The notes under the pieces: generated by a model
The model's database searches: none
What the model saw: the letters and a program-made list of their open reading frames with translations, nothing else
Told to the model about the DNA's origin: nothing
Program-made: the position numbers and the translations under genes
NCBI GenBank assembly: GCA_027487315.1
Contig: JAIYDW010000207.1
Coordinates: 1 to 60,554 of the forward strand
Reading direction: 5' to 3'
Length of the DNA: 60,554 bases
Origin: Verrucomicrobiaceae bacterium
GTDB lineage: Bacteria; Verrucomicrobiota; Verrucomicrobiia; Verrucomicrobiales; Verrucomicrobiaceae
In this document: one piece after another, positions 175 to 8,554 of the stretch
Numbering within the stretch: position 1 is the first letter of the stretch
Layout of the letters: each line of letters starts with the position of its first letter

Positions 175-281
175 CACCGACTCAAACCAACCGCATGGAT
201 GCCGTTCACACAACATGCGCTCATCACCGACAAAAGCGCATCTGACGATCACTCACCCCTTCGTTGTGCGTTCTTGTCGGG

Positions 282-2024
282 ATGACATTTCCCCACTGGA
301 CCCTCTACGCCCCGATACTTCTCGCATCCACCTTGCAGGCTGAGACCTGGCCGCTGGATAAAGTGGACGGCACCATGATCGTGCACGGCGAGGCCAACAC
401 AGCTGCGGGCGCACTGGCACAAAGCTTGGTCCTAGATGGCAGCTCAGTGATCGAACTGAAGGACACAGCAGCCCTCAATGCTGAGCCCGGTTTCACCTTA
501 TCCATCTGGTTCAATCCGTATGTGGTCTCAGGCTCTCAACAGGTCATCGCAGGGAAGACTCGTTACTCGCTGAACGAAAGGCAGTGGACCCTCGCCTTAG
601 AGCCGGATGGCAAACTCAAAGCATTCTTTCAGCAAGACGGCTGGAAAACCATCAGCAGCAGTGAACCCCTCAAGGGCGGACATTGGCATCTCGCAACCCT
701 CACCGTCAGCTCCAAAATCGCGACACTCTATCTGAACGGCAAACGTGCGGGTGAGACCATCCTCAAGAAGCCGCTGCCCGTCACGCCGTCACCCATCACA
801 CTCGGAGGCATAGCGGATGCGGGCCACTTGAAACAAACGTTCTCCGGTGCCCTCGATGAGTTCCACTACGAACCGCGCACGCTCACCGCAGCGGAGATCG
901 CACAGAGCTTCCGACCCGTCACAGCCACACATGATCTGCCCAAGCCCCTTTTATCAGACACACCGTTATGGGACGAGCGCGTGCCTCTGCTCAATGCCGC
1001 TGAACTACCCGTGCTTGAGGACGTGGCGTTTCATGTCATCAAGAACCCTCGACCCGACACCGATGAGTGCAAGTGGACCCTCGGAGTCGGCCTCGCATGG
1101 CACAAGGGTCTACTCTTCGCCTCTTACGGCTTCAACAAAGGCGAAGAAAACACCCCCACCGAAGAAGCGCACGTCCGCATCAGCAACAATGGCGGCCAAA
1201 CCTGGGGCAAGCCTGTCGTCATGGATTCGGGTGAAGGCAATCTCGGCGTCAGTCACGGCGTCTTCCTATCCCACAAGAACAAGTTGTGGGCGTTCTTGGG
1301 CGCGTTTTACGATCGATTCCAACGCACCCACACCCGCGCCTACTTGCTCGATGAAGCGACAGGTCAATGGCAGGCAAAAGGTGTGGCGCTCGAAGGTGGC
1401 TTCTGGCCCATGCAAGAGCCTCAAAAAATGGACGATGGCAATTGGATCATGGCCGGAGCCAACATCGGCGATCGCAACCCCGCAGCCGTGGCGATCAGCC
1501 AGGGCGATGATTTCACCCAATGGAAAAAAATCATCATCCCCGTCTCGAAGAAGCTGAACATGTGGGGGGAGTCCACCGTCATCATCAACGGCAATCGCAT
1601 CACCAACATCTCCCGCTATGGCGCCCAACCCATCGCACTCATCGCCACCAGCGAAGACTTCGGGCGCACGTGGAGCACCATGCTACCCTCAAACCTCCCC
1701 ATGGCGACCAGCAAGCCCTACGCAGGCACCTTGAGCACCGGCCAGCGCTATCTCGTCTGCACCACCACCGCCGACAGCCGCGGCAAGCGCTCGCCATTGA
1801 CCATCGCCGTCAGCAAACCGGGTGAATCCGTGTTCAGCAAGGTCTTCGTGATTCGCCACTCCGTCTACCCCAATGGCCCCGGTGTCTCCGATCCCCGGGC
1901 CGACTTCAGTTACCCCTATGCCATCGAACACGACGGAAAGCTCTACGTCGGTTATACCCACAAAAGCCATGCTGCAAACGAACTAGCCGTCATTCCAATC
2001 GAAAAACTCCGCCTCAACCCATGA
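282..2024 (+). CDS. Secreted LamG-domain sialidase (GH33-like)
   Basis: Probable exported exo-sialidase or related glycosidase acting on host or algal glycans. I place the start at ATG 282, which gives a short signal peptide ending near LQAETW; a TTG at 264 is in frame but adds only six residues. Residues about 30-200 look like a LamG/concanavalin-type jelly roll (a FTLSIWFNPY strand and a LYLNGKRAGE strand). Residues about 240-575 form a BNR six-bladed propeller with Asp-box-like repeats SNNGGQTW near residue 300 and SEDFGRTW near 456. The jelly roll probably binds carbohydrate. It is followed on the same strand by a secreted esterase, which suggests joint removal of acyl and terminal sugar groups. 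Substrate specificity cannot be read from sequence. Confidence 0.8.
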   Translation: MTFPHWTLYAPILLASTLQAETWPLDKVDGTMIVHGEANTAAGALAQSLVLDGSSVIELKDTAALNAEPGFTLSIWFNPYVVSGSQQVIAGKTRYSLNERQWTLALEPDGKLKAFFQQDGWKTISSSEPLKGGHWHLATLTVSSKIATLYLNGKRAGETILKKPLPVTPSPITLGGIADAGHLKQTFSGALDEFHYEPRTLTAAEIAQSFRPVTATHDLPKPLLSDTPLWDERVPLLNAAELPVLEDVAFHVIKNPRPDTDECKWTLGVGLAWHKGLLFASYGFNKGEENTPTEEAHVRISNNGGQTWGKPVVMDSGEGNLGVSHGVFLSHKNKLWAFLGAFYDRFQRTHTRAYLLDEATGQWQAKGVALEGGFWPMQEPQKMDDGNWIMAGANIGDRNPAAVAISQGDDFTQWKKIIIPVSKKLNMWGESTVIINGNRITNISRYGAQPIALIATSEDFGRTWSTMLPSNLPMATSKPYAGTLSTGQRYLVCTTTADSRGKRSPLTIAVSKPGESVFSKVFVIRHSVYPNGPGVSDPRADFSYPYAIEHDGKLYVGYTHKSHAANELAVIPIEKLRLNP

Positions 2025-2105
2025 GTCTCATCCATGCCCGCCTTACCTTCCTGCTACCCGCGGAAGCAGGCTGAGAGAGTTCACCTCCAAAAACGTTCAC
2101 CCGTC

Positions 2106-3038
2106 ATGTCACAACGCCTTCTCACCCTTCTCATCTTCGCATCCATCCTGCCAGTGCTCGCTGCGAAACCGAAAATCAAAGCCACCCAAACAAACTCGGA
2201 CGACATGTGGGTCACTTCACCCGTGCCCGAACTGCCGACCCATGTAACGCATCACACTTTTCGCAGCGCATCCATGAATCGCGACATTGGCTACTGCATC
2301 TACCTGCCACCAACCTACGACCAAGACACCAATCAACGGTTTCCGGTGATCTATCATCTGCATGGCGCAGGTGGAAATGAGACTCGCAGTGTGTATTCAG
2401 CGACCGTGCTGCATGAAGGCATCATGGCCGGGAAGTTGCCCAAAATCATCATGGTCTTCCCCAATGGAGGGCGCTCGACAATGTATCAGGATTCCGGCGA
2501 TGGCCGCTTCATGGCCGAGACAATGATGGTCCATGAACTCATTCCTCACATCGACGCGACCTATCGCACCCTCGCCGACCGCAAGGCGCGCTGCATCGAA
2601 GGCTTCAGCATGGGCGGGCGTGGCTCCACCAATCTGGTGATGAAACATCCGCAAATGTTCGGCTCGCTCTTCAATCAAAGCGGCAACGTCTATCACGTCT
2701 CTGATCCTTCAAAGCTGCCCAACGCCTACCTCGGCGACGACCCCGAGCGCCTGCGTGCCAACGATGCCTTCCTGAACCTCAAAAAGAACCTCGATTTCAT
2801 CAAAGCCAACCTCCGCATCCAGGTTGCCTGCGGCACCGCCGATCCAGAGCATCTCGTTTCGGTGCGGGAATTCCACCAAGCTCTCACTGAGGCAGGCATG
2901 CCTCACAGCTACTTCGAAGTCGAAGGCCTGGATCACAATCAGAAGAAGATGATCGACGGACGCAAAGCGACCTGGTTCGATTTTCAAATCGAATCCCTCA
3001 AGCTCAACCAAGTGCCACTCCACTACCTTCAACCATGA
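2106..3038 (+). CDS. Secreted esterase, esterase D/enterochelin-esterase fold
   Basis: Alpha/beta hydrolase of the putative esterase family (PF00756 type, often annotated as enterochelin esterase or feruloyl/acetyl-xylan esterase). Start chosen at ATG 2106 because it opens a clean signal peptide (SQRLLTLLIFASILPVLA); the frame extends further upstream without a signal. The oxyanion region HLHGAGGNE, the nucleophile elbow GFSMGGRG (Ser near residue 168), an acidic residue in GTADPEH and a histidine in GLDHNQ (near 276) supply a complete catalytic triad. It follows the sialidase by about 80 bases and probably acts with it on decorated glycans in the periplasm or outside the cell. The acyl substrate is unknown. 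Confidence 0.8.
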   Translation: MSQRLLTLLIFASILPVLAAKPKIKATQTNSDDMWVTSPVPELPTHVTHHTFRSASMNRDIGYCIYLPPTYDQDTNQRFPVIYHLHGAGGNETRSVYSATVLHEGIMAGKLPKIIMVFPNGGRSTMYQDSGDGRFMAETMMVHELIPHIDATYRTLADRKARCIEGFSMGGRGSTNLVMKHPQMFGSLFNQSGNVYHVSDPSKLPNAYLGDDPERLRANDAFLNLKKNLDFIKANLRIQVACGTADPEHLVSVREFHQALTEAGMPHSYFEVEGLDHNQKKMIDGRKATWFDFQIESLKLNQVPLHYLQP

Positions 3039-3142: not shown

Positions 3143-4468
3143 ATGCCAACTGTCGACATCCCCTTTGAGCAAGGCGTTCTCTCCGTTCCACTGCCGGAAG
3201 GTTGGCAAGTCGTCGATACCATACGCCCCTTGCCGCACGCCAAACTCGAGGACGAAAGCGCCGGCCTCATCGCAGCGCTGGAGAAGCCCATTGGAACCTC
3301 GCCCTTGCGAGACAAAGTTCTGGCCCAAAAACGCATCGTCATCTGCATCGACGACATCAGCCGCCCCACCCCCACTGCCAGGTACTTCGGCACCCTGCTC
3401 AACTATCTGGTCGCCCATGGCGCCAACCCCGGGAACATGCTGATCCTCTTCGCCCTGGGCGTGCACCGCGACATGACCGCGGAGGAAGCTCGCCAAAAAA
3501 TCGGTGACATTGATCTGCTCGGCATCCCCTGGCGCAATCACTCCAGCACCGATGTACGCGAACTCGCCACTCTCGGCACCACCACTCGGGGCACTCACAT
3601 CGCTCTCAATCGCCACCTGGTTGACGCTGACCTCATCATCACCCTTGGCGCTGTCGATCCCCACCTTTTGCTTGGCTTCAGCGGCGGCTGCAAGATGATC
3701 CTCCCAGGCCTGGCCTCCGCTCGCACCATTGCCGAAAACCACATGCAGGGCGTCAGTCATGCCCAATACAACTACATCGGCATCGCCGACAGTCCGATGC
3801 GCCTCGACCTTGAGGAAGGCGCCGGCATGCTGGGCAAAGAAATCTTCATCATCAACGCGGTGATGAATGAATCACTGGAGGTCTGCGCTTTTTTCGCCGG
3901 TCACCCCGTTGCTGCGCATCGCGAAGCAGTCCGCGTCGTTCAATCGATTAACGCACGCCCGGTCCAGGCACCCGTGGACGTTGTCATCGTCGCCTCAAAC
4001 CCCATGAACGCAGATCTGCGGCAGGGCTTGAAATGCATCGGCAATGTGGAAGCCAGCGTGCGCCCTGATGGATTGATCATCGGTTTTCTGGAGTGTCGGA
4101 ACGGCATCGGTGACATTACCATCCCAACCTCCAAGTCCCTGCCGAACAGGGTGCTTCGATTCCTCCTGAAATGCATTGGCAGCAAGAGAGTGCTGGGGCT
4201 GATCGACCGGGTCAAAAAAGGCGCCGGCATCGAAGAGCGTTTTTTGGCTCACTTTTCAATGCAGCTCGCCCGCAACTGCCAAATTTTTGTCCACTCACGC
4301 CAACTTCCGGCCGACATCGGCAAAAGGGTTGGCTTGTTCGTTCAGTTTGCCACGGTTGAAGCCATGATGGCCGCTGCCCGCAAACGAGCCCCAAAAAAGG
4401 CCAGCGTCCTCGTGTATCCCTACGCAGGCGCGACGTATCCCACTCTCTCAAAAGATCGCCAACCATGA
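3143..4468 (+). CDS. LarA-family nickel-pincer racemase/epimerase
   Basis: Homolog of the lactate racemase LarA (DUF2088 plus C-terminal domain), about 441 residues, the usual length. The key residues of Lactiplantibacillus plantarum LarA are present at the same numbers: Lys184 (covalent anchor of the pyridinium-thioamide cofactor, in GFSGGCKMILPG), His200 (nickel ligand), and the acid/base pair His108 and His174. The DDISRPTP motif near residues 70-77 matches the substrate-contacting Asp/Arg region. The enzyme therefore looks active and would need LarB, LarC and LarE to make its cofactor; none is in this window. LarA homologs act on various 2-hydroxyacids, so lactate is not assured. Its stop overlaps the start of the GH105 gene by four bases (ATGA), implying translational coupling and a role near sugar-acid degradation. 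Confidence 0.85.
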   Translation: MPTVDIPFEQGVLSVPLPEGWQVVDTIRPLPHAKLEDESAGLIAALEKPIGTSPLRDKVLAQKRIVICIDDISRPTPTARYFGTLLNYLVAHGANPGNMLILFALGVHRDMTAEEARQKIGDIDLLGIPWRNHSSTDVRELATLGTTTRGTHIALNRHLVDADLIITLGAVDPHLLLGFSGGCKMILPGLASARTIAENHMQGVSHAQYNYIGIADSPMRLDLEEGAGMLGKEIFIINAVMNESLEVCAFFAGHPVAAHREAVRVVQSINARPVQAPVDVVIVASNPMNADLRQGLKCIGNVEASVRPDGLIIGFLECRNGIGDITIPTSKSLPNRVLRFLLKCIGSKRVLGLIDRVKKGAGIEERFLAHFSMQLARNCQIFVHSRQLPADIGKRVGLFVQFATVEAMMAAARKRAPKKASVLVYPYAGATYPTLSKDRQP

Positions 4469-5688
4469 TTCATCGCACTTGCACCCTTGCATCGCTTCTC
4501 TGCCTCACCGCAGTTCAGGGGTCCTCTTCGGCCGCAGAGAACGAGTCTGCGGCGCAACTGCGCGTCGTCGCTGAACATGTGTTAACGCAAACGACCCGCC
4601 GGATGATTGATCGGAGCAGCGGACAGACCTTTGAAGAGACGACCGGCCTCGCACCGAAGCCGGAGATCAGTATCGAGAGCAAATTCAACGCGTGGTTTTA
4701 CCAGACGTGGCTGCTCACGGATGGAATGCGACGTGCTGCCGCCGCTCTCAATGAACCGCGATACCACGAATACGGCGAACAGAATCTGGAATTCATCTTC
4801 CGGCACATGGACTACTTTCAGCGTCAGCATGATGCACGCATCAAGGCTGCTCCCGTCGGAGACGGAAAGCTTTCGCCAATCGGCTTCTACTTCGACATCA
4901 CCGCACTCTGGCACACCGGTCTCGCTCCGCTCGTGCTGGAGCGCTCCCAAGCAACAAGTGAGCCGAAGTACGATCCCTTTCTGAGACGAATGAGACACTT
5001 CATCACCGAGTGCCCCCGTTTCGACGACGGCCTGCTCTACCGCAAAGGCAAAGGCGCAATGACGGATGATCCGTTCATGACCGTCCCCTTCCTCGTTCGG
5101 GAGGCGCGCTTTGATGAGGCGGTCGCGCAGGTGCTCGGCACGCACAGACGTCTGCTCGATCCAGACAAACATCTTCTTCGGCATTTGTGGGATTCAAAAA
5201 CGCAAAAGCCCGCTGGTGAGTTTTGGGGACGAGGCAATGGCTGGACCGTTCTCGCGCACGTCGAACTTCTCGCCACCATGCCGAAAGATCATCCTCGCAG
5301 AGACGAGGTTCTGGCGGCTTATCAAAAGCACCTGACCGCAATCCGCGACTGCGCCGACCCAAAAGGCGGCTGGCATCAGGTGCTGGATCATCCAGAATCC
5401 TGGCTGGAGACCTCCGCCACCGGCATGTTGACCTATGGCATCGCTCGTGGCGTCAATGAAGGCTGGCTGGACGCTTCATTCACCGAAACCGCCCGCAAAG
5501 GCTGGGCCGCGTTGCAAACCAAGGTCCTGCCCGATGGCGATCTGCTCGACGTTTGTGGTTCGACCGATACTGGCGACTTGGACTATTACCTCAAGCGCCC
5601 TCGACTTCAGGGAGATCTCCACGGTTTTGGCAGCTACCTGCTGGCCGGTGCCGAAATCGTCCGTCTGCAATCCAGCCACTCCAAGTGA
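4465..5688 (+). CDS. GH105 unsaturated glucuronyl/galacturonyl hydrolase
   Basis: Secreted hydrolase resembling YteR/RhiN (GH88/105). These enzymes hydrate the 4,5-unsaturated uronic acid left by polysaccharide lyases, for instance on rhamnogalacturonan or ulvan oligomers. There is a signal peptide at the N-terminus. An alpha/alpha toroid fold is indicated by the repeated motifs MTDDPFMTVPF (catalytic Asp region, near residue 200), EFWGRGNGW (near 253), GGWHQVLDHPESWLETS and GDLHGFGSYLLAGAE near the end. About 407 residues is normal for a secreted member. It overlaps the LarA-like gene by four bases. No polysaccharide lyase is next to it, although the beta-helix protein at 28.3 kb is a distant candidate partner. 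Confidence 0.8.
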   Translation: MIHRTCTLASLLCLTAVQGSSSAAENESAAQLRVVAEHVLTQTTRRMIDRSSGQTFEETTGLAPKPEISIESKFNAWFYQTWLLTDGMRRAAAALNEPRYHEYGEQNLEFIFRHMDYFQRQHDARIKAAPVGDGKLSPIGFYFDITALWHTGLAPLVLERSQATSEPKYDPFLRRMRHFITECPRFDDGLLYRKGKGAMTDDPFMTVPFLVREARFDEAVAQVLGTHRRLLDPDKHLLRHLWDSKTQKPAGEFWGRGNGWTVLAHVELLATMPKDHPRRDEVLAAYQKHLTAIRDCADPKGGWHQVLDHPESWLETSATGMLTYGIARGVNEGWLDASFTETARKGWAALQTKVLPDGDLLDVCGSTDTGDLDYYLKRPRLQGDLHGFGSYLLAGAEIVRLQSSHSK

Positions 5689-5767: not shown

Positions 5768-7630
5768 ATGTCGCGCGCCCGATCTTCCAAACCATCACCT
5801 CCTCTCGTCTACCTGGGTATCGAAGGAGGTGGCACCCGGACCACCGTGCGCTTGGAGGCTGAAAACGGTTCGGTTTTGGCCGAGTTCGCAACGGGTCCCG
5901 CCGTGCTTTCTTTGATCTCGGACCGGGAGTTGCAATGGCACCTCCGCGATATCGCCGAACGCCTCCCCTGCACACCCTCTGCCATCGGCATTGGACTCGC
6001 CGGTGTGCGGACCGAAACCGATGCCGAACGCCTGCGCCGTGCCGCTTCGCGGATCTGGCCAGAGATACCATGCGTCGCGACCAACGATCTAGAGACCGCC
6101 CTCGCCGCCGTGCCCATGTCGAGAGTGCCGAGCTCTCGAGTCTTGGTGCTGAGCGGCACCGGATCCTGTTGCTTTGGCCGCTCCTCCGATGGACGCACCG
6201 CTAAAGTCGGTGGCCGGGGTCACGTCATCGGCGATCGCTCCAGCGCCTGCGACATCGGCCTGCGGGCTCTCCGCGCTGTCATCGCAGATCTGGATCATTC
6301 TGGAAAAATGGGACCGCTCGGTGCCGCCATGCTGAATGCGCTGATGTTCAATGAGCCAGAGCAACTCATCCCCTGGTCCGTGCAGGCTAGCAAAACGGAA
6401 ATCGGGAATTTGGCAGTGACCGTTTTCGTTGAAGCTGCCAAGGGGGATGCACTCGCCAAAAAACTGCTAAGCGATTCCGCAGCCATGCTTGCCGAAGATG
6501 CCAGTGCCTGCGCGCTCCAACTCAAGCGCGATGCCGAGCCCATTGAGTTTGTTTTCAACGGTGGCGTGCTGCTCAAGAACCCGCCCTTCCTGAAAGAAGT
6601 CTGCCGCCGACTCCGAGTCGCCGTTCCCGGAGCCAAGATGATCCCGTTGACCGTGCCTTCAGTCTTGGGCGCCGTGGCGCTCGCACGCGCTCAAGGCGTC
6701 GTCGGCCCGGCTCAGGCGCATAGCCCAGCACGGGCATCCTTTCGCACCTTAACGTTGCCAGCTCCGTTAGCAGACTTAGGCGTGCTGGCCTTGTCACCCA
6801 CCGAGCGGCGCAACACACGCAGCCTGAAGCTCGACAAAATGCCGGTGGAAAAGGCCGTCGAGTTGATGCTGAGCGAAGACACTCTGATTCCTGCTGCCGT
6901 TGAAAAGGAGAAACGTGCCATCGCCGCTCTAGCAAAGCGGGTCGCACACGCTTTTGCTGCGGGCGGGCGGTTGTTTTACGTCGGAGCGGGCACCAGTGGC
7001 CGTCTGGGGGTCCTGGATGCCAGCGAGATTCCTCCCACTTTCCGAGCGCCACGCGAGCAGGTGCAAGGCATCATCGCCGGTGGTCGCCAAGCGCTATGGA
7101 GCGCGGTGGAAGGCGCCGAAGACGACGTCCAGGCCGGAGCAGCGGCGATCACCCATCGCCGTGTCGGAAAAAAGGATGTGGTCATTGGCATCGCCGCTAG
7201 CGGACGCACCCCCTTTGTCTGGGGAGCTTTGCACGAAGCTCGGCGGCGAGGAGCACACACGGTGATGCTCTGTTTCAATCCCGCCATGCGTCAGGCAGTT
7301 ACTAAATTGAAAGGCCCGGACCAATCCTGGGCACCCGACCTCCTCCTGGCATTGGACCTCGGCCCGGAGGTCTTGACTGGCTCCACGCGTCTCAAATCCG
7401 GAACGGCAACCAAACTCGTACTGAATTTGATCTCCACTCTCGCCATGGTGCAATCCGGCAAGGTGATTAGCAACCTCATGGTCGATTTGAACCCTTCCAA
7501 CGTCAAGCTGCGCGACCGTGCCGAACGCATGGTTGCGGAACTCACACAGCGCTCCCTCGAAGATGCTCACGACGCCCTAACCGCCTCCGGATGGGTCGTC
7601 AAAAAGGCCTGCGCCAAGCTAGGTCTTTAG
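5768..7630 (+). CDS. Fused MurK-like sugar kinase and MurQ etherase
   Basis: Two enzymes in one 620-residue chain. Residues about 10-320 are a BadF/BadG-type ASKHA kinase (GIEGGGTRTT phosphate-1 loop, LSGTGSCCFGRS and GGRGHVIGD loops), the family that includes N-acetylglucosamine and N-acetylmuramic acid kinases such as MurK. Residues about 345-610 are MurQ, which cleaves the lactyl ether of MurNAc-6-phosphate to give GlcNAc-6-phosphate and lactate. It shows TERRNTRSLKLD, the SIS loop VGAGTSGRLGVLDASE (catalytic Glu near 419), AVEGAEDD (Glu near 448) and LTGSTRLKSGTATK. The chain could phosphorylate MurNAc and pass it straight to the etherase, a complete cytoplasmic peptidoglycan-recycling step. 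There is no signal peptide, consistent with the cytoplasm. The kinase could instead prefer GlcNAc. Confidence 0.88.
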   Translation: MSRARSSKPSPPLVYLGIEGGGTRTTVRLEAENGSVLAEFATGPAVLSLISDRELQWHLRDIAERLPCTPSAIGIGLAGVRTETDAERLRRAASRIWPEIPCVATNDLETALAAVPMSRVPSSRVLVLSGTGSCCFGRSSDGRTAKVGGRGHVIGDRSSACDIGLRALRAVIADLDHSGKMGPLGAAMLNALMFNEPEQLIPWSVQASKTEIGNLAVTVFVEAAKGDALAKKLLSDSAAMLAEDASACALQLKRDAEPIEFVFNGGVLLKNPPFLKEVCRRLRVAVPGAKMIPLTVPSVLGAVALARAQGVVGPAQAHSPARASFRTLTLPAPLADLGVLALSPTERRNTRSLKLDKMPVEKAVELMLSEDTLIPAAVEKEKRAIAALAKRVAHAFAAGGRLFYVGAGTSGRLGVLDASEIPPTFRAPREQVQGIIAGGRQALWSAVEGAEDDVQAGAAAITHRRVGKKDVVIGIAASGRTPFVWGALHEARRRGAHTVMLCFNPAMRQAVTKLKGPDQSWAPDLLLALDLGPEVLTGSTRLKSGTATKLVLNLISTLAMVQSGKVISNLMVDLNPSNVKLRDRAERMVAELTQRSLEDAHDALTASGWVVKKACAKLGL

Positions 7631-7636
7631 GGTCCC

Positions 7637-8554
7637 TTATCCCAGCTTCGCGCCAAGTCGCGTCAACATCGCTTCCAGCATTCGGCCATACTTGACGTAG
7701 CTGTCATACTGCTCCTTGGCCTTCTGCTCGGGGGACAATCCATCGGCCGCGCCGGCACCATGAAACACCACTGCCACATGCGGTTCGATGCTGATGTAAC
7801 CCTCATAACCGGTTTCCACGAGGTCCTTCATGATGCGTTCCGTCTGGCCTTCGCCCTCGCCTGGATAGGTGTAGATGGCATCGTTTTTCGCCGTGTCCCA
7901 GACGCCATCCTTGACGTGAACATGCGCCATGAAAGGTTTGACGGCTTGATACATCGCCCACGCATCCTGCTTGTGCCCTGGGCGGTCACGGTCGTCAATA
8001 AAGACAGGGTTGCCGGTGTCGAACACCCACTTCATGCCTGGAACCGCCTCCGCCATGCGCTGGACGTAGCTCGGGCTCATTCCACCCCAGTTCATGCAGT
8101 TCTCATGGATCACGGTTAGACCCGCGTCAGCAAAACGCTTGTTTATTTCAATCATGCGTTTGATGCGCTCCGGTGCGAATTGCTCTTCCAAATCCTTGCC
8201 GTCATCGTCCTTGCACACGGCGTAGCTCATCACCCGGATCAACTTGGCGCCGAGACGCTGCATCCGCGGGATCGCCCGGCTGATTTCAGCTTCGGTGATG
8301 CTGAAATCATCGGTGATCTTCTTCGCCCAGTTGCCAATGAGCGATCCAAAGCCACTCACCTTCATGCCCTTTTCCTCAAGGTGGGCCACGACCTTGTCGA
8401 ACACACCGTCAGGGATCTCATGCAAATTGCCCTTCACTCCGTCAAATTCCACGCCTCGCGCTTCGATGCTATCCCAGCCAAGGTCCTTGTGGGCTTGAAT
8501 CTGCACGTCGAGGGGTGCGCCTGCTTCGTCTGCAATACCGGTAAGTTTGATCAT
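7637..8554 (-). CDS. Sugar phosphate isomerase/epimerase-like TIM barrel
   Basis: AP-endonuclease-2-type TIM barrel (xylose isomerase-like family), 305 residues. It begins MIKLTGIADEAG, with strand/loop blocks GWDSIEARGVE, VIHENCMNWGG, WVFDTGNP, MAHVHVKDG and GYISIEPH. The Glu, Asp, His and Glu residues at the ends of these strands are the usual divalent-metal ligands. There is no signal peptide, so it is cytoplasmic. Members isomerise or epimerise ketoses or inosose-like sugars; the substrate cannot be fixed from sequence. It converges on the MurK-MurQ gene with a six-base gap, so the two are neighbours but not one operon. Confidence 0.75.
   Translation of the reverse strand: MIKLTGIADEAGAPLDVQIQAHKDLGWDSIEARGVEFDGVKGNLHEIPDGVFDKVVAHLEEKGMKVSGFGSLIGNWAKKITDDFSITEAEISRAIPRMQRLGAKLIRVMSYAVCKDDDGKDLEEQFAPERIKRMIEINKRFADAGLTVIHENCMNWGGMSPSYVQRMAEAVPGMKWVFDTGNPVFIDDRDRPGHKQDAWAMYQAVKPFMAHVHVKDGVWDTAKNDAIYTYPGEGEGQTERIMKDLVETGYEGYISIEPHVAVVFHGAGAADGLSPEQKAKEQYDSYVKYGRMLEAMLTRLGAKLG

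Follow-up and report, generated by a model that had tools for sequence, protein, structure and literature searches.

We analysed a window of 60,554 nucleotides from a Verrucomicrobiaceae bacterium (the whole stretch of DNA, to which all plain coordinates below refer). It carries a gene for a homologue of LarA (LarAH), which lies among the following genes and features:

264..2024, + strand: LamG-BNR (sialidase-like) secreted protein, upstream neighbour (PF13385, PF13088)
2034..3038, + strand: CE1/esterase-D-type esterase, upstream neighbour (PF00756, 1.1e-23)
3143..4468, + strand: LarA homologue (LarAH), 441 aa (Lar_N; below all NCBIfam LarAH cut-offs; AlphaFold and VIA match)
4465..4468, + strand: ATGA overlap of the LarA stop and the GH105 start (sequence; kept in L006 and L007)
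4465..5688, + strand: GH88/GH105-family unsaturated-uronyl hydrolase, apparently exported (PF07470, 2.5e-57; PDB 3k11, yteR, GH105)
5768..7630, + strand: fused MurNAc/GlcNAc kinase (N-terminal) and MurQ MurNAc-6-phosphate etherase (C-terminal), predicted D-lactate source (NF003915, 8zo3, 4lzj)
7637..8554, - strand: sugar-phosphate isomerase/epimerase-like TIM barrel, convergent neighbour (PF01261, 1.2e-21)

The order of these genes (BNR protein, esterase, LarA, GH105, MurK-MurQ fusion, TIM-barrel protein) is kept in three species. The ATGA overlap with a glycan hydrolase gene, noticed in a preliminary description of the sequence, is confirmed, and two sister species retain it, with the LarA gene and the GH105 start at 3253-4578/4575 (L006) and 3264-4589/4586 (L007). 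The GH105 neighbour scores 194.9 bits with PF07470, above the cut-off, and the co-directional MurK-MurQ gene begins 79 nt past it. At the contig start, positions 1-174 hold the C-terminal 57 codons of an open reading frame without Pfam match; an 81-83% identical frame occupies the same place near contig ends in both sister species, which suggests a shared assembly-breaking repeat.

The product of 3143-4468 matches the Lar_N domain with 171 bits, against a Pfam cut-off of 23.3 (E 1.9e-50), and no match to LarA_C (PF21113) was found in it by the Pfam search. The AlphaFold model, computed from a nine-sequence alignment, has a mean pLDDT of 77.7, with low confidence at residues 323-361. The structures closest to the model are complexes of Isosphaera pallida LarA that contain D-lactate or D-2-hydroxybutyrate (9eia, 9eid), and the best VIA match is the D-lactate complex (Z 41.7, rmsd 2.8 over 417 aligned residues). 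The malate racemase Mar2 is matched at Z 36 (rmsd 4.7) and GntE2 at Z 29 (rmsd 3.8, 370 residues); unrelated folds begin at Z 5.4 in the VIA comparison. The modelled protein shows the two-domain LarA fold, spanning the LarA structures at Z 36-42, and its predicted fold matches them over almost the whole length, far beyond chance.

In LarA, which works with the nickel-pincer nucleotide (NPN) cofactor, D72 is the catalytic Asp, R75 the NPN-binding Arg, H108 (acid/base) and H174 further catalytic residues, K184 the site of covalent NPN attachment, and H200 the Ni ligand. The corresponding codons in the window, placed by alignment to the Lactiplantibacillus plantarum protein (LarA_Lp), are:

3353..3364, + strand: D71-I-S-R74 (LarA D72/R75), invariant in alignment A1
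3464..3466, + strand: His108
3662..3670, + strand: His174, then the pocket residues L175 and L176 (LarA F175 and F176)
3692..3694, + strand: Lys184
3740..3742, + strand: His200
4019..4033, + strand: R293-Q294-G-L296-K297 (LarA Y294-Q295-A-V297-K298)
4241..4246, + strand: F367-L368, side-chain pocket (LarA W358-T359)

Counted from the ATG, H108, H174, K184 and H200 are present in the 441-aa product, as the preliminary description had read, and the alignment identifies them as the true equivalents of the L. plantarum LarA residues, with no shift. Its broader statement, that every key residue stands at LarA numbering, holds exactly for these four and fails for the others: LarA D72, R75, Q295 and K298 correspond to D71, R74, Q294 and K297, each one lower, and Arg293 takes the place of Tyr294. 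The match of the four numbers is a coincidence of insertions and deletions, and it is the aligned residues that carry weight. The NPN-binding set (R74, K184, H200) and the catalytic set (D71, H108, H174, K297, Q294) are both complete, bearing out the reading of an intact nickel-pincer site. LarA and Mar2 carry the same residues at all eight positions, as do most of the LarA homologues fetched (66 compared), the commonest departure being Arg for K298 (20/66). For the window protein, NPN-dependent racemase or epimerase chemistry in general is highly probable. As for the substituted position, Tyr294 of LarA binds the substrate 2-OH, and the Y294A change abolished NPN in I. pallida LarA (PMC11851776).

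Published pockets of the family are F-F-W-E/Q in lactate racemases and E-V-A-H in gluconate epimerases; malate racemases are marked by H/Q-K at 358/359, and racemases of hydrophobic 2-hydroxyacids by F/Y at 358 (PMC11770544). At the specificity positions F175, F176, W358 and T359, the window protein has L, L, F, L (L175, L176, F367, L368), so that F367 bears the LarAH10 mark at the W358 position. Several named groups were tried and rejected: plain lactate racemase (equivalog NF033504, 223 bits against a cut-off of 460; F, F, W, E/Q absent), LarAH6 malate racemase (NF052593, the best NCBIfam score, 262 bits against 500; F, L instead of H/Q-K), gluconate 2-epimerase (GntE; L, L, F, L against E, V, A, H) and LarAH10 (NF052525, 228 bits against 540, under half of the cut-off). 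The LarAH5 score was also below its cut-off (205 of 462). Judged from the aligned residues, the pocket looks hydrophobic, yet it matches no named LarA group.

The preliminary description had stated that the family depends on LarB, LarC and LarE, and had named a genome without lar biosynthesis genes as refuting its reading; these genes do occur in the genome, as a single larE-larB-larC cluster (contig C126:30711-33531) in which all three score above curated cut-offs. The genome has one Lar_N protein; genome-wide statements such as these refer to targeted searches. Neighbours of larEBC encode an exosortase, an EpsI-type protein, glycosyltransferases and a PaaK-like ligase, then an acyltransferase and a DUF362 protein. 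Among 57 relatives, LarB was above the cut-off in 27 and Lar_N was found in 6, all six with LarB. Because many relatives have LarB without LarA, the presence of larBCE says little about whether LarA is active in this group. About 15% of genomes examined elsewhere carry larB, larE and larC without larA, and the NPN client in them is unknown (PMC11796402). In our set, loci L109-L111 (family f2) and L113 and L117 (family f6) have larB, larC and larE without Lar_N or a DUF362 of the type described below.

Three species of a single Verrucomicrobiaceae genus have close members of the subclade to which the protein belongs (94-96% identity), and one Omnitrophota genome (L008) has a 52% identical homologue. 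The search covered the genomes of 387 Verrucomicrobiota and 384 Omnitrophota, as well as plasmids, viral contigs and a genome collection; beyond those four genomes, no member closer than ~36% appeared in the 387 Verrucomicrobiota, the 384 Omnitrophota and the genome-contig scan. The combination that defines the subclade, Arg for Tyr294 with the hydrophobic L-L-F-L pocket, is confined to those four genomes among the sequences searched and adds to the family a small LarA subgroup whose active-site Arg is unusual. Of 66 sequences, 6 have Arg in place of Tyr294, four from the subclade and two from other Omnitrophota proteins (L051 and L053), which lie within surface-polysaccharide clusters. At the loci L183:8234-11722 and L184:8023-10810, a glycosyltransferase gene immediately precedes an Arg-bearing LarAH, and a fused cytidylyltransferase-NeuB gene follows at a short distance.

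MurQ cleaves MurNAc-6-phosphate to GlcNAc-6-phosphate and D-lactate. The MurQ part of the fusion scores 338 bits against 168 with NF003915 (5e-101), above the subfamily cut-off, matches the MurQ structure 4lzj at 2e-60, and keeps the Glu of each of the two MurQ motifs, DASE and GAED, which are separated by 31 residues; the stricter equivalog TIGR00274 was narrowly missed (288 against 302). The kinase part matches 8zo3 at E 3e-31. The same single-chain fusion, as one open frame with 50-69% identity, occurs in most family members searched. The preliminary description does not mention this neighbour, which would be a direct source of D-lactate in the cytoplasm. By inspection, the N-terminus of the GH105 protein resembles a signal peptide, and neither the LarA homologue nor MurK-MurQ has such a stretch.

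We tentatively favour a role in D-lactate salvage: the LarA homologue would act in the cytoplasm and, with NPN, racemise a small hydrophobic 2-hydroxyacid, for which D-/L-lactate is the likeliest candidate. In the cytoplasm, MurK-MurQ would convert MurNAc to GlcNAc-6-phosphate and D-lactate, and the LarA homologue would turn this D-lactate into L-lactate. NPN made by LarB, LarE and LarC would be tethered to Lys184, with its nickel bound by His200; His108 and His174 would take and give back the hydroxyl proton, while the C2 hydrogen would pass as a hydride to NPN and return on the opposite face. Both lactate forms could then be burnt while peptidoglycan-containing detritus is degraded.

In favour of D-lactate as the substrate are the Lar_N domain, the eight conserved positions, the fold of I. 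pallida LarA with D-lactate, the hydrophobic pocket, the presence of larE, larB and larC in the genome, and the order with MurK-MurQ conserved in three species. The genome also encodes LldD-like and GlcD-like 2-hydroxyacid dehydrogenases, both scoring below equivalog cut-offs. We keep the proposal tentative because MurK-MurQ is common without LarA in the family, which makes the link genus-specific, because the Omnitrophota relative L008 has neither GH105 nor MurK-MurQ as a neighbour, and because the tightest coupling, through ATGA, is to GH105 and not to MurQ. Further points against it are Arg293 in place of Tyr294, the scores short of every named LarAH equivalog, and the search for a LutB-type L-lactate oxidase, which found none in the LarA-bearing species and one in the congener G002, which is without LarA. 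No MurQ was found beside other LarAHs within the short flanks examined, and our literature search found no paper tying lactate racemisation to D-lactate from MurNAc breakdown. If the D-lactate reading is true, MurNAc breakdown becomes a possible physiological source of D-lactate for lactate racemisation.

The absence of both neighbours in the Omnitrophota relative, which lacks sugar and MurQ context, fits a racemase of another hydrophobic 2-hydroxyacid (2-hydroxybutyrate, 2-hydroxyisocaproate or an aromatic one) unrelated to the neighbouring genes, like the promiscuous LarAH10 enzymes. Phe at the W358 position with Leu elsewhere suits hydrophobic 2-hydroxyacid racemases (PMC11770544), and gene context does not help in every case (PMC7583248). 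We nevertheless hold this explanation to be somewhat unlikely, given the low LarAH10 score and given that it would make the adjacency of MurQ coincidental.

The preliminary description had suggested as substrate a sugar acid released by GH105. The ATGA translational coupling in three species, together with the esterase and BNR protein upstream, would agree with an epimerase of a sugar acid arising from GH105-cut glycans. However, the pocket is without the gluconate-epimerase signature, GH105 looks exported and the LarA homologue does not, and GH105 products are 4,5-unsaturated uronates, handled by KduI/KduD, which offer no saturated C2-OH. Because of pocket residues, compartment and product chemistry, we set this suggestion aside as the leading idea and consider it improbable.

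It is also quite improbable that Arg293 binds a second negative charge, making the substrate anionic (of malate, phosphoglycerate or sugar-linked lactyl type). The Arg shared with the Omnitrophota proteins L051 and L053, which lie beside NeuB/cytidylyltransferase and glycosyltransferase genes, and the top NCBIfam score of the LarAH6 malate racemase point this way; against it, H/Q and K are absent at 358/359 (F, L) and LarAH6 reaches just 262 of 500. Finally, an inactive or cofactor-less relic, with NPN going to another client, would agree with larEBC sitting in a polysaccharide cluster and tracking DUF362 rather than LarA across the family, but it is extremely improbable given the intact catalytic and NPN residues, the 94-96% identical sequences kept in three species, and LarB in every LarA-bearing relative.

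The gene beside larEBC is the following (region C126:28073-33531 corresponds to L079:3071-8538):

L079:3071-4546, - strand: DUF362 protein (PF04015)

The order larE-larB-larC-DUF362-PaaK recurs at larB loci. Among 36 family genomes, 19 have both LarB above the cut-off and this DUF362 and 17 have neither of the two, while LarA is in 6; the hypergeometric probability of this match is 1.2e-10, ignoring relatedness. The match is again exact when genus g8, in which DUF362 does not adjoin larB, is taken by itself (7/16, 8.7e-5). Other polysaccharide-cluster genes likewise travel with larB. DUF362 and Lar_N belong to a common Pfam clan, CL0471 (PMC11770544). In a gapless alignment, DUF362 DADVLINIPKLKC-H253...K263 falls on LarA DADLIITLGAVDP-H174...K184, with the same 10-residue spacing, and a third invariant DUF362 His (278) lies one residue short of LarA H200. 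The His/Lys may be general in DUF362. A profile comparison by hhalign did not match DUF362 to LarA, since too shallow an alignment was available for DUF362, and no PDB entry reached E 1 as a relative of DUF362.

In the seven g8 genomes, LarB and DUF362 occur without detectable LarC (DUF362 at L174-L176), and at the four larB loci that were read (L112, L116, L118 and L128) LarE adjoins LarB. Because no LarC was detected in them, the g8 cofactor may differ, either being without nickel or relying on another insertase. NF052623 (Npun_F2552 family) matches DUF362 residues 226-273, the region of the His-Lys motif, with 63 bits against a cut-off of 500; the family name presumably refers to a gene of Nostoc, which directs attention to the cyanobacteria. 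Cyanobacteria, too, have larBCE without larA.

We therefore raise, as a possibility short of an even chance, that in Verrucomicrobiaceae the NPN (or NPN-like) cofactor serves chiefly this DUF362 protein, which would bind it via Lys263 with His253 and His278, and that the LarA homologue of this genus is a second client. Our literature search found no paper joining a DUF362 protein to NPN as client. If true, DUF362 would be an instance of a non-LarA NPN enzyme that shares its supply with the LarA homologue. The co-occurrence and shared ancestry make the client question testable with existing co-expression systems, and this pattern matters more than the racemase, which is a modest novelty.

Compared with known systems, the window protein is structurally nearest to LarA_Ip/SAR of Isosphaera pallida, with which it shares the whole fold, the NPN and catalytic residues and a hydrophobic pocket. 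It differs from LarA_Ip in overall sequence (26% identity), in Arg293 for Tyr294 and Phe for Trp358 (LarA_Lp numbering), and in a diverged C-terminal domain without PF21113 match. With L. plantarum LarA (5huq, 6c1w) it has in common the H108, H174, K184 and H200 numbers and the D/R and Q/K pairs, but not the F, F, W, E/Q signature (NF033504, 223 of 460). By sequence, Mar2/LarAH6 (6d6z) scores best among families with a solved structure or a name (E 3e-47 in the PDB, 262 bits in NCBIfam), whereas the H/Q-K malate signature is absent and the cut-off of 500 is missed. The LarAH10-type racemases of hydrophobic 2-hydroxyacids share Phe at the W358 position and a hydrophobic pocket, with a score of 228 of 540. 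The DUF362 family (PF04015), of the same clan CL0471, matches the window LarA homologue weakly (3.6e-4).
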